From: an uncultured Prevotellaceae bacterium
GTDB taxonomy: Bacteria > Bacteroidota > Bacteroidia > Bacteroidales > Muribaculaceae
NCBI GenBank assembly: GCA_947169265.1
Contig: CAMVPC010000007.1
Location: forward strand, 37,731 to 101,730
Direction: 5' to 3'
Length of the DNA: 64,000 nt
The translations under genes were made by a program, and so were the position numbers. Positions within the stretch are counted from its first letter, which is position 1; every line of letters starts with the position of its first letter. Positions 3,929 to 62,396 of the stretch are shown piece after piece. The notes beneath the pieces were generated by a model. That model was not told where the DNA came from. It did no database searches and saw nothing but the letters and a program-made list of their open reading frames with translations.

Positions 3929-5284
3929 ATGCAGCGCGACGCCATTGATTTCGGGAAAACGAATGTCTCCCGGCTCTTTGCCAAGATGTTCTTTCCCACG
4001 CTCATGGGATTGCTCTTCGGCTCGTTGCTCAATATTGCCGACGGCATCTTTGTGGGGCGAGGCGTGGGGAGTGACGCGCTTGCAGCCATCAATGTCGCGG
4101 CACCCGTGTTCTTGATAACGACCGGCGTGTCGCTGATGTTTGCTACGGGAGTGAGTATCGTGGCCTCCATCCACATGTCGCGCAAAAATTTCAAGGCGGC
4201 CAACATCAACATCACCCAGGCGCTCACGGTTCCGTTACTGCTCATGACAATTGTCCTCGCCGTCATCGACTGTTTCCCGAGGACTGTCACGTTTCTCTTC
4301 GGCGGGTCGGAACGATTGGTCCCGCTGGTGACCGACTATCTCATCTGGGTGTCACCATCGATGCTGATGTGTGTTGTCCTGTTTGTGGGCATGTTTGCCG
4401 TCAGGCTCGACGGCTCGCCCAATTTTGCCATGGCGGTCAATATCTTTGAGGCCGTGCTCAACATCATTCTCGACTATGTGTTTGTCTTCCCGCTGGGCAT
4501 GGGCATCAAGGGGGCAGCCATCGCCACCAGCATCGCGTCGATACTCTCGGCCGCCCTGGTGCTGGTGTATATGTTCTTCTTCACCAAAACCATAGGGTTC
4601 TATCGGCCCAAGTTCAGCGCCAAGGCCATTCGGCTTACCGCACGCAATGTGGGCTACATGTGCAGGATGGGCTTCTCCACATTCCTGGGCGAGACGGCCA
4701 TTTGCTGCACGATGATAGTGGGTAATTTTATGTTTATGCGCTATTTGCGAGAAGACGGCGTGGCGGCCTTCTCGGTGGCGTGCTACCTGTTCCCGCTGGT
4801 GTTCATGGCCGGCAACGCCGTGGCGCAGTCGTCGCAACCCATCATCAGCTACAATCACGGCCAGGGCAACAAGGAGCGCGTGCGGCGCACGTTCAAGATA
4901 GCGCTCATCGTCTCCAGTGTGATGGGGGTTCTCATCACTATCTTGGGCGTCACGGCGAGTCCCCTGCTCGTGGATATGTTTCTTGAGCCGGGCATCGCGG
5001 CGTGGAAGATCGCGGTCGACGGTTTCCCGCTTTACGCCACCTGTTTTGTGTTTTTCACGCTCAACATTGTGCTCATCGGCTACTTCCAGAGCATTGAGCG
5101 GTCGAGGCGCGCCACCTTGTTCATGCTGTTGCGGGGATATGTGCTCGTCATTCCCAGCTTCCTGATTCTGCCTCGGCTGCTGGGCCCGGCGGGGCTGTGG
5201 CTCGCCATCCCCGTGGCCGAGACACTCACGTTCGTCACCACTATCATCACCATGGCGTTGCCGCTAAAACACCACTCTCGATAG
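3929..5284 (+). CDS. MATE family efflux transporter
   Basis: About 12 hydrophobic segments; FPTLMGLLFGSLLNIADGIFVGRGVGSDALAAINVAAPV is typical of MATE N-termini. Confidence 0.9.
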   Translation: MQRDAIDFGKTNVSRLFAKMFFPTLMGLLFGSLLNIADGIFVGRGVGSDALAAINVAAPVFLITTGVSLMFATGVSIVASIHMSRKNFKAANINITQALTVPLLLMTIVLAVIDCFPRTVTFLFGGSERLVPLVTDYLIWVSPSMLMCVVLFVGMFAVRLDGSPNFAMAVNIFEAVLNIILDYVFVFPLGMGIKGAAIATSIASILSAALVLVYMFFFTKTIGFYRPKFSAKAIRLTARNVGYMCRMGFSTFLGETAICCTMIVGNFMFMRYLREDGVAAFSVACYLFPLVFMAGNAVAQSSQPIISYNHGQGNKERVRRTFKIALIVSSVMGVLITILGVTASPLLVDMFLEPGIAAWKIAVDGFPLYATCFVFFTLNIVLIGYFQSIERSRRATLFMLLRGYVLVIPSFLILPRLLGPAGLWLAIPVAETLTFVTTIITMALPLKHHSR

Positions 5285-18823: not shown

Positions 18824-18874
18824 TAATTTCTTTTAATAACTCAAAAGCTCGCGGCTCAACGCTCAACGCTCAAT

Positions 18875-22608: not shown

Positions 22609-22699
22609 GAGCTTAGAGCCTCGAGCCTCGCCCCACGAGCCCCGAGCGAAGAGCCTCGAGCCGCGACCCGCGAGCCATGAGCTTAGAGCGAAGAGCAGC
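22609..22699 (+). repeat. GAGCNNN heptad tract, 13 units
   Basis: gagctta gagcctc gagcctc gccccac gagcccc gagcgaa gagcctc gagccgc gacccgc gagccat gagctta gagcgaa gagcagc, uninterrupted 7-nt phase. Confidence 0.93.
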
Positions 22700-22857
22700 G
22701 AGTGCGTAGCGAGTAACGCCGAAGGCGTGCCAAGGCCAGCGGCCTTGACTTGAACGAAACCCCACGGCGCGTAGGCCGAAGGCCTGCGTGGCGTGGGGCA
22801 TAGTGCCGCACTCTCACGAAGAGCCCCGAAGGGGGTCACAAACAGCGAATCGGCTTC
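22700..22857 (+). repeat. Multi-hairpin repeat core, copy 1a
   Basis: gagtgcgtagcgagtaACGCCGAAGGCGTgcCAAGGCCAGCGGCCTTG...CCCCACGGCGCGTAGGCCGAAGGCCTGCGTGGCGTGGGG...CCCCGAAGGGGG... Confidence 0.95.
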
Positions 22858-22885
22858 GAGCCATGAGCAGTGAGCCGTGAGTCTC
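22858..22885 (+). repeat. GAGCNNN heptad tract, 4 units
   Basis: gagccat gagcagt gagccgt gagtctc. Confidence 0.9.
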
Positions 22886-23040
22886 GAGTGCGTAGCGAGT
22901 AACGCCGAAGGCGTGCCAAGGCCAGCGGCCTTGATTTGAACGAAACCCCACGGCGCGTAGGCCGAAGGCCTGCGTGGCGTGGGGCATAGTGCCGCACTCT
23001 CACGAAGAGCCCCGAAGGGGGTCACAAACAGCGAACCGGC
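22886..23040 (+). repeat. Multi-hairpin repeat core, copy 1b
   Basis: Near-identical to copy 1a. Confidence 0.95.
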
Positions 23041-33224: not shown

Positions 33225-33266
33225 GAGCAATGAGCTTTGAGCCATGAGCAGTGAGCTTTGAGCCTC
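33225..33266 (+). repeat. GAGCNNN heptad tract, 6 units
   Basis: gagcaat gagcttt gagccat gagcagt gagcttt gagcctc. Confidence 0.93.
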
Positions 33267-33423
33267 GAGTGCGCAGAGAGTAACGCCGAAGGCGTGCCAA
33301 GGCCAGCGGCCTTGACTTGGACTAAACCCCACGGCGCGTAGGCCGAAGGCCTGCGTGGCGTGGGGATAGTAGCCCACACTCATGAGGAGCCCCGAAGGGG
33401 GTCACAAACGGCGAATCGGCTTC
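33267..33423 (+). repeat. Multi-hairpin repeat core, copy 2
   Basis: gagtgcgcagagagtaacgccgaaggcg...gccccgaagggggtcacaaacggcgaatcggcttc. Confidence 0.95.
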
Positions 33424-33472
33424 GAGCAACGAGCATCGAGCCATGACCGTCGAGCTTAGAGCCGCGGGCTTC
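33424..33472 (+). repeat. GAGCNNN heptad tract, 7 units
   Basis: gagcaac gagcatc gagccat gaccgtc gagctta gagccgc gggcttc. Confidence 0.9.
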
Positions 33473-37099: not shown

Positions 37100-37183
37100 G
37101 AGCGATGAGCCATGAGCACTGAGCATCGAGCCATGACCGTCGAGCTTAGAGCCGCGGGCGTCGAGCTTAGAGCCGTGAGCCTC
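37100..37183 (+). repeat. GAGCNNN heptad tract, 12 units
   Basis: gagcgat gagccat gagcact gagcatc gagccat gaccgtc gagctta gagccgc gggcgtc gagctta gagccgt gagcctc. Confidence 0.95.
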
Positions 37184-37340
37184 GAGTGCGCAGAGAGTAA
37201 CGCCGAAGGCGTGCCAAGGCCAGCGGCCTTGACTTGGACTAAACCCCACGGCGCGTAGGCCGAAGGCCTGCGTGGCGTGGGGATAGTAGCCCACACTCAT
37301 GAGGAGCCCCGAAGGGGGTCACAAACGGCGAACCGGCTTC
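37184..37340 (+). repeat. Multi-hairpin repeat core, copy 3a
   Basis: 157 nt; same core as copy 2. Confidence 0.95.
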
Positions 37341-37375
37341 GAGCAACGAGCTTTGAGCAGTGAGCAATGAGCCTC
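37341..37375 (+). repeat. GAGCNNN heptad tract, 5 units
   Basis: gagcaac gagcttt gagcagt gagcaat gagcctc. Confidence 0.93.
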
Positions 37376-37532
37376 GAGTGCGCAGAGAGTAACGCCGAAG
37401 GCGTGCCAAGGCCAGCGGCCTTGACTTGGACTAAACCCCACGGCGCGTAGGCCGAAGGCCTGCGTGGCGTGGGGATAGTAGCCCACACTCATGAGGAGCC
37501 CCGAAGGGGGTCACAAACGGCGAATCGGCTTC
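37376..37532 (+). repeat. Multi-hairpin repeat core, copy 3b
   Basis: 157 nt; same core as copy 2. Confidence 0.95.
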
Positions 37533-37602
37533 GAGCAACGAGCCGTGAGTATTGAGCAACGAGCCATGACCGTCGAGCTTAGAGCAGCGAGCGAAGAGCA
37601 CC
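37533..37602 (+). repeat. GAGCNNN heptad tract, 10 units
   Basis: gagcaac gagccgt gagtatt gagcaac gagccat gaccgtc gagctta gagcagc gagcgaa gagcacc. Confidence 0.93.
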
Positions 37603-37621: not shown

Positions 37622-37650
37622 GCCCCCAGTGAACGCGTTTCACTGGGGGC
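37622..37650. repeat. Perfect hairpin between core copies 3b and 3c
   Basis: GCCCCCAGTGAA-acgcg-TTCACTGGGGGC, 12-bp stem. Confidence 0.8.
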
Positions 37651-37709: not shown

Positions 37710-37866
37710 GAGTGCGCAGAGAGTAACGCCGAAGGCGTGTCAGGGCCAGCGGCCTTGACCTGGATGAAACCCCACGGCGCGTAGGCCGAAGGCCTGCGTG
37801 GCGTGGGGATAGTAGCCCACACTCATGAGGAGCCCCGAAGGGGGTCACAAACGGCGAACCGGCTTC
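37710..37866 (+). repeat. Multi-hairpin repeat core, copy 3c
   Basis: 157 nt; minor substitutions (gtgtcagggcc, cctggatgaaa). Confidence 0.95.
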
Positions 37867-37922
37867 GAGCAACGAGCTTTGAGCAGTGAGCAATGAGCGC
37901 TGAGCGATAAGCGATAAGCACC
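37867..37922 (+). repeat. GAGCNNN heptad tract, 8 units
   Basis: gagcaac gagcttt gagcagt gagcaat gagcgct gagcgat aagcgat aagcacc. Confidence 0.9.
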
Positions 37923-37955: not shown

Positions 37956-37995
37956 AAAAAAGGATTGCCCCAAACAACCGGGGCAATCCTTTTTA
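37956..37995 (-). terminator. Intrinsic terminator downstream of the amylase gene
   Basis: AAAAAGGATTGCCCC-N7-GGGGCAATCCTTTTT. Confidence 0.8.
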
Positions 37996-62262: not shown

Positions 62263-62396
62263 GAGAGTGTAGGGACTAATGCCGAAGGCGTGCCAAGGCC
62301 GGCGGCCTTGACTTGAACGAAACCCCACGGCACTGCGTGGCGTGGGGGATACTGCCGCACTCTCACGACGAGCCCCGAAGGGGGTCACAAACGGCG
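62263..62396 (+). repeat. Multi-hairpin repeat core, copy 4 (internally shortened)
   Basis: gagagtg...gccgaaggcgtgccaaggccggcggccttgacttgaacgaaaccccacggcactgcgtggcgtggggg...cactctc...ccccgaagggggtcacaaacggcg. Confidence 0.92.

Follow-up and report, generated by a model that had tools for sequence, protein, structure and literature searches.

REP sequences of E. coli serve as substrates for the transposase TnpAREP, whereas their complements do not, and conserved mismatches within REPs are needed for TnpAREP activity (PMC8266576). Cellular roles of REPs and BIMEs have also been summarised (PMC8266576). In TIRtrons, a Y1 gene (TIRYT) is bounded by long inverted repeats that are self-complementary in part and also form repeat families (PMC3733652). 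A C-terminal HTH-like domain characterises subclass 2.1, to which most TIRYTs belong (PMC6006769). The transposases of TnpAY1 subclass 1.2 are listed as 'no' for REP and are generally without IS200-type ends (Quentin et al. 2018, PMC6006769). Among open-licence papers we found no report on REP-like ends for subclass 1.2, or on the repeat described here.

We analysed a 64-kb stretch of DNA (the window) that carries copies of a repeat with a four-hairpin core. The core is very probably a solo, dispersed copy of one structured end of a small mobile element of the IS200-like, single-strand DNA type, similar to a REPtron or TIRtron.

Structure and covariation of the four-hairpin repeat

Four hairpins, three of them with GAA triloops, were found at 37184-37340 on the plus strand, where a first-pass annotation of this DNA had placed them. 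Its account of H3 (17 of 18 positions paired, two of them as G-U wobbles) also proved accurate, the sole non-pair being G·G 37251/37275. The features are as follows.

37184..37340, plus strand: hairpin end element, copy 1; numbered from the outside (position 1) to the side that faces the transposase in the parent element (position 157)
37200..37212, plus strand: H1, ACGCC-GAA-GGCGT, outer hairpin; 87.8% of cells paired (the alignment begins inside the stem)
37215..37231, plus strand: H2, CAAGGCC-AGC-GGCCTTG; 99.1% of cells paired, with both-side changes in 6 of 7 pairs
37244..37282, plus strand: H3, 39-nt imperfect hairpin; invariant G·G mismatch 37251/37275 and conserved G·T wobble 37253/37273
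37304..37320, plus strand: H4, inner hairpin GAGCCCC-GAA-GGGGGTC; conserved G·G mismatch 37306/37318

The plus strand had been proposed as the better folder, and this was borne out by the predicted energies: -77.9 kcal/mol for the plus strand (z -4.66; 0 of 200 shuffles equally good) and -70.8 kcal/mol for the minus strand (z -3.01; 1 of 200 shuffles equally good).

Covariation among copies had been suggested as a check on the structure, and the signal was strong. In an alignment of 47 divergent group-A copies, 97.0% of paired cells were kept, compared to 88.2% in shuffles, and 140 cells were changed on both sides, compared to 36. Compensatory both-side changes occurred in 20 of 33 pairs, and the covariation score of 0.335 exceeded both that of shuffles (0.165) and that of slid pairings (at most 0.083). 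The mispairs were likewise retained: the H3 G·G in all 47 copies, the H4 G·G in 45 and the H3 G·T wobble in 39. In a second sequence group (group B) the ends differ in primary sequence but follow the same plan, and these covary too. The long imperfect hairpin of group B carries an invariant T·T mismatch and an internal loop, its apical stem has been swapped wholesale with compensation, and an inner hairpin with a mismatch lies next to it.

The window holds seven copies of the 157-nt element, all on the plus strand. Besides copy 1, these are:

37376..37532, plus strand: copy 2, 99% identical; direct tandem with copy 1 at 192-nt spacing
37710..37866, plus strand: copy 3, 97% identical
33267..33423, plus strand: further copy, 99% identical
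22700..22857, plus strand: further copy, 92% identical
22886..23040, plus strand: further copy, 92% identical
62263..62396, plus strand: further copy, 78% identical; lacks the apical part of H3 through a deletion

The genome from which the window derives (G000) contains more than 20 copies, 22 of which match the 18-nt left arm of H3 exactly. Divergent copies (74-87% identity) were detected in 15 of 36 congeners, and none in the 24 genomes that represented other families of this order. Copy number and position vary between congeners. One of these (G035) carries four near-identical, gene-less inverted dimers with unrelated flanks, and another (G005) has 13 copies with recurring borders and different flanks. 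On the six contigs with clear skew the elements are always on the C-rich strand, but coding strands are C-rich too, which confounds this comparison as a test of replication strand.

Some copies have other structured sequence nearby. At four G005 loci (L087, L091, L095, L098), group-A solo ends adjoin stretches resembling the group-B inner hairpin (AAGTTCCTCTTCGAGGC), suggesting nested or chimeric elements. A perfect hairpin, GCCCCCAGTGAA/TTCACTGGGGGC, is present in the window at 37622-37650, and similar hairpins adjoin element copies at L027 ~4697-4745 and in L029.

The cognate Y1 transposase

In congeners, inverted copies of the element flank a 148-aa ORF encoding a Y1 (IS200-like) transposase. 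A single close copy of this gene lies in the window's own genome (contig C8:31505-31948), with a plus-strand element copy (88%) just upstream and a minus-strand copy (94%) just downstream. Most congeners also have a single close copy, and G035 has three. Just outside the upstream end of the own-genome gene, at L027:3400-3640, is a tandem array of ~38-bp units, each containing an H1-like hairpin (ACGCC-GAA-GGCGT) and GCGGATACCGC.

The assignment to the Y1 family was supported by both profile and structure comparisons. A congener protein 71% identical to the own-genome transposase matched Pfam Y1_Tnp with an E of 6e-21; no other Pfam domain was found in the 148-aa protein, and the C-terminal HTH-like extension of subclass 2.1 is absent. 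The own-genome transposase scored 60.4 bits against the NCBIfam IS200 model, above its cut-off of 55, and the score for REP_Tyr (REP_Tyr_transpos) was 26 bits, below the cut-off of 80. The family profile matches the solved ISDra2, IS608 and Sulfolobus transposases. Similarly, Foldseek with the family's AlphaFold model (pLDDT 86.5) gave 30 matches in the PDB at E <= 1e-3, every one a Y1 transposase (ISDra2, IS608 and others), including 4er8, a RAYT bound to a REP hairpin. H53xH55, Y114 and Y114xxxQ118 are invariant across the family, and the Y---NP motif of TnpAREP (class 2) is absent from it.

A collection scan identified homologous transposases at 80 loci, all in Bacteroidales MAGs and mostly in gut and rumen Muribaculaceae. 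For the 69 loci with enough flanking sequence, the upstream 300 nt were compared with the inverted downstream 300 nt, and inverted-repeat flanks were scored where the match was beyond all 30 dinucleotide shuffles. Such flanks were present at 67 of the 69; the two exceptions are Bacteroidaceae. Element and enzyme also co-occur: the element was found in 8 of 8 genomes with a group-A transposase and in 8 of 29 without one (Fisher p 3e-4). Counting against the transposon-end reading, a close cognate transposase is absent from 8 of the 16 copy-bearing genomes, which may reflect MAG gaps or loss.

The strand asymmetry (G·G mismatches and G·T wobble) faces inward at both ends of the element, and mispairs are retained equally at the upstream (6) and downstream (7) ends of transposase genes. 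Given the opposite orientation of the two ends, the asymmetry reads as sense on one side of the gene and as antisense on the other side, and is thus a property of the element end rather than of a transcript. It is what a strand-specific HUH enzyme binding the hairpin of one strand would select. Strong covariation with a G-U strand bias is not by itself proof of RNA, as an identical signal arises from strand-specific DNA hairpins.

Putative insertion sites and the recA locus

Many copies in the window's genome lie against degenerate heptad arrays, three of which surround copies 1 to 3.

37100..37183, plus strand: degenerate (GAGCNNY)n heptads flanking copy 1 on its outer side; putative insertion target
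37341..37375, plus strand: array separating copies 1 and 2, its heptads in phase with those on either side
37867..37922, plus strand: heptad array after copy 3

Further arrays were seen in the window at 22609-22699, 22858-22878, 33225-33266, 33424-33444 and 37575-37602, and on the minus strand at 18844-18871. The (GAGCNNY)n arrays mostly adjoin element copies, and some stand alone. Abutment on a heptad array was observed for 15 of the 22 copies in the window's genome, compared to 2.6% of random positions, and in all 15 cases array and element are on the same strand. The usual border is GAG|TGCG...CGG|CNNC-GAG, so that removal of the element restores in-phase heptads with no duplication, and no target duplication is visible at the window copies in heptad arrays. 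Insertion after GAG without duplication, as read from these junctions, would fit a Y1 enzyme that inserts behind a short motif. In some cases the heptad flank may have been copied along with the element, and then perhaps only about five heptad junctions are independent.

An orthologous site empty of the element was found behind recA in a closely related congener (G027), with the order of recA and its downstream gene kept and a heptad array present. The element was not found at the 29 other congener recA loci. In the window, a terminator-like hairpin (37957-37994) follows the copies behind recA.

Origin of the repeat and comparison with known systems

Taken together, we propose that the parent element consists of the 148-aa HUH/Y1 transposase gene between two inverted ends. 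Each end would fold as a single strand into H1 to H4, with the invariant mispairs in H3 and H4 marking one strand. By analogy with IS608 and the REPs of E. coli, the transposase would bind and cut the marked, folded strand, with H3 as the probable recognition hairpin, and would act in trans to mobilise inverted dimers as well as solo ends. On this view the copies in the window would have been pasted after GAG into pre-existing (GAGCNNY)n arrays, on the same strand and without target duplication. A broader version, which we put forward as possible but doubtful, is a distinct Muribaculaceae Y1 system in which subclass-1.2-like transposases act on composite four-hairpin ends with two mismatch-marked hairpins each, solo ends insert strand-specifically after GAG within degenerate heptad arrays, and the host's intergenic heptads serve as safe landing pads.

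The first-pass annotation took the structure to mean action as RNA, that is, a cis-acting element that would serve the upstream gene as 3' UTR stabiliser, as riboregulator or by attenuation. The conserved structure, its asymmetry and its covariation all stood and would suit such an element, as would the better fold of the plus strand. As a primary explanation, however, RNA action is quite improbable: the identical structure forms both inverted ends of a Y1 gene, one of them on the antisense side, and gene-less inverted dimers present both strands. A relaxed threshold gave only sub-threshold Rfam matches and no family. The copies behind recA precede a terminator-like hairpin and so may be transcribed, but the link to recA is not conserved (0 of 29 other congener loci), nor is any association with a single gene class. 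The annotation had also reasoned that a functional RNA should not occur equally in both orientations relative to adjacent genes. Solo copies lie 3' of genes, in convergent (11), tandem (8) and divergent (2) contexts, so that regions with divergent promoters are avoided. Only the tandem contexts are informative, as the other two carry no orientation information. There the copies were indeed unequal, 7 co-directional versus 1, but the numbers are small and the strand of the heptads (15/15) explains the orientation too. A related reading keeps the mobile origin and supposes that the solo copies have since come to stabilise mRNA 3' ends or to serve as gyrase/IHF-like sites, as has been reported for REPs and BIMEs of E. 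coli. Their position between gene 3' ends, the weak co-orientation and the known cellular roles of REP/BIME (PMC8266576) speak for it, while no particular gene association is conserved and copy number and position differ among congeners; we consider this exaptation rather unlikely. A secondary effect on mRNA 3' ends, as for E. coli REPs, is possible.

In G035 the units also lie inside elements with other termini. DDE-type termini were recorded at L069, L071-L077, L127, L128, L134 and L137, with 8-bp target duplications beside GGYTCACC.. termini and 9-bp duplications beside CATTACTGTCCGG.. termini. We considered target duplication as a property of the Y1 element and rejected this: there are two outer termini, each with its own duplication length and each also found on unrelated sequence, which indicates DDE-type ends wrapped round the units. 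The REP-like dimers of G035 were apparently captured as MITE cores, although a search for an autonomous DDE gene for these ends identified none. These loci would also agree with the whole repeat being a MITE of a DDE transposase with incidental hairpins, given that they carry GGYTCACC or CATT.. as terminal repeats, with duplications of 8 or 9 bp. We regard this as very improbable: of the congeners examined only G035 has these termini, the window copies lack them, and the only feature common to all genomes is a hairpin end tied to a Y1 gene. The end of a Y1 element remains the preferred identity of the repeat, although the G035 duplications, probably from DDE-type ends, mean that not all dispersal is due to the Y1 enzyme.

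Compared to IS200/IS605 elements (IS608, ISDra2), the catalytic fold and the strand-specific imperfect hairpins are shared, as probably is a mode of insertion that follows a short motif and leaves no target duplication, judging from the window copies. The transposase has the IS200 score, the HUH motif with catalytic Tyr and the Y1 fold of that family. The element itself differs, with two long inverted ends in place of small subterminal hairpins, and usually one gene copy per genome and many gene-less ends in place of many near-identical full copies.

By motif, length and phylum the transposase appears subclass 1.2-like: it resembles TnpAY1 subclass 1.2 in its 148 aa, invariant Y---Q--HH, Bacteroidetes host and low copy number, but has NH[IV]H for DH[IV]H and WG for WQ, both invariant here, and is accompanied by long hairpin ends and dispersed copies. 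That subclass was reported without REP or IS-type ends and its role was left open, whereas many of the relatives found here have covarying single-strand flanks. These flanking structures also spread without the gene, and they give defined substrates for binding, cleavage and mobility assays.

The long flanking inverted repeats form a repeat family as in TIRtrons, although the protein, at 148 aa, is without the C-terminal HTH-like domain of most TIRYTs. With the TnpAREP/REP systems of E. coli and Pseudomonas (RAYT, REPtron, REPIN) the element shares a Y1 gene between inverted palindromic ends, dispersed and mostly intergenic copies, inverted dimers and strand-marking stem mismatches; as for canonical REPs, the dispersed palindromes are cognate to a Y1 transposase gene that they flank. 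It differs in its ends of ~130 nt with four hairpins, compared to 20-50 nt for REPs, in having no conserved GTAG/GTGG, the GT[AG]G foot of canonical REPs, at either foot of H3 in the 47 aligned copies, and in a protein without Y---NP that scores under the REP_Tyr cut-off. The element is thus a variant of the REP/REPtron (or TIRtron) kind, neither a canonical REP nor a standard IS200, and it extends REP-like systems to gut Bacteroidales.
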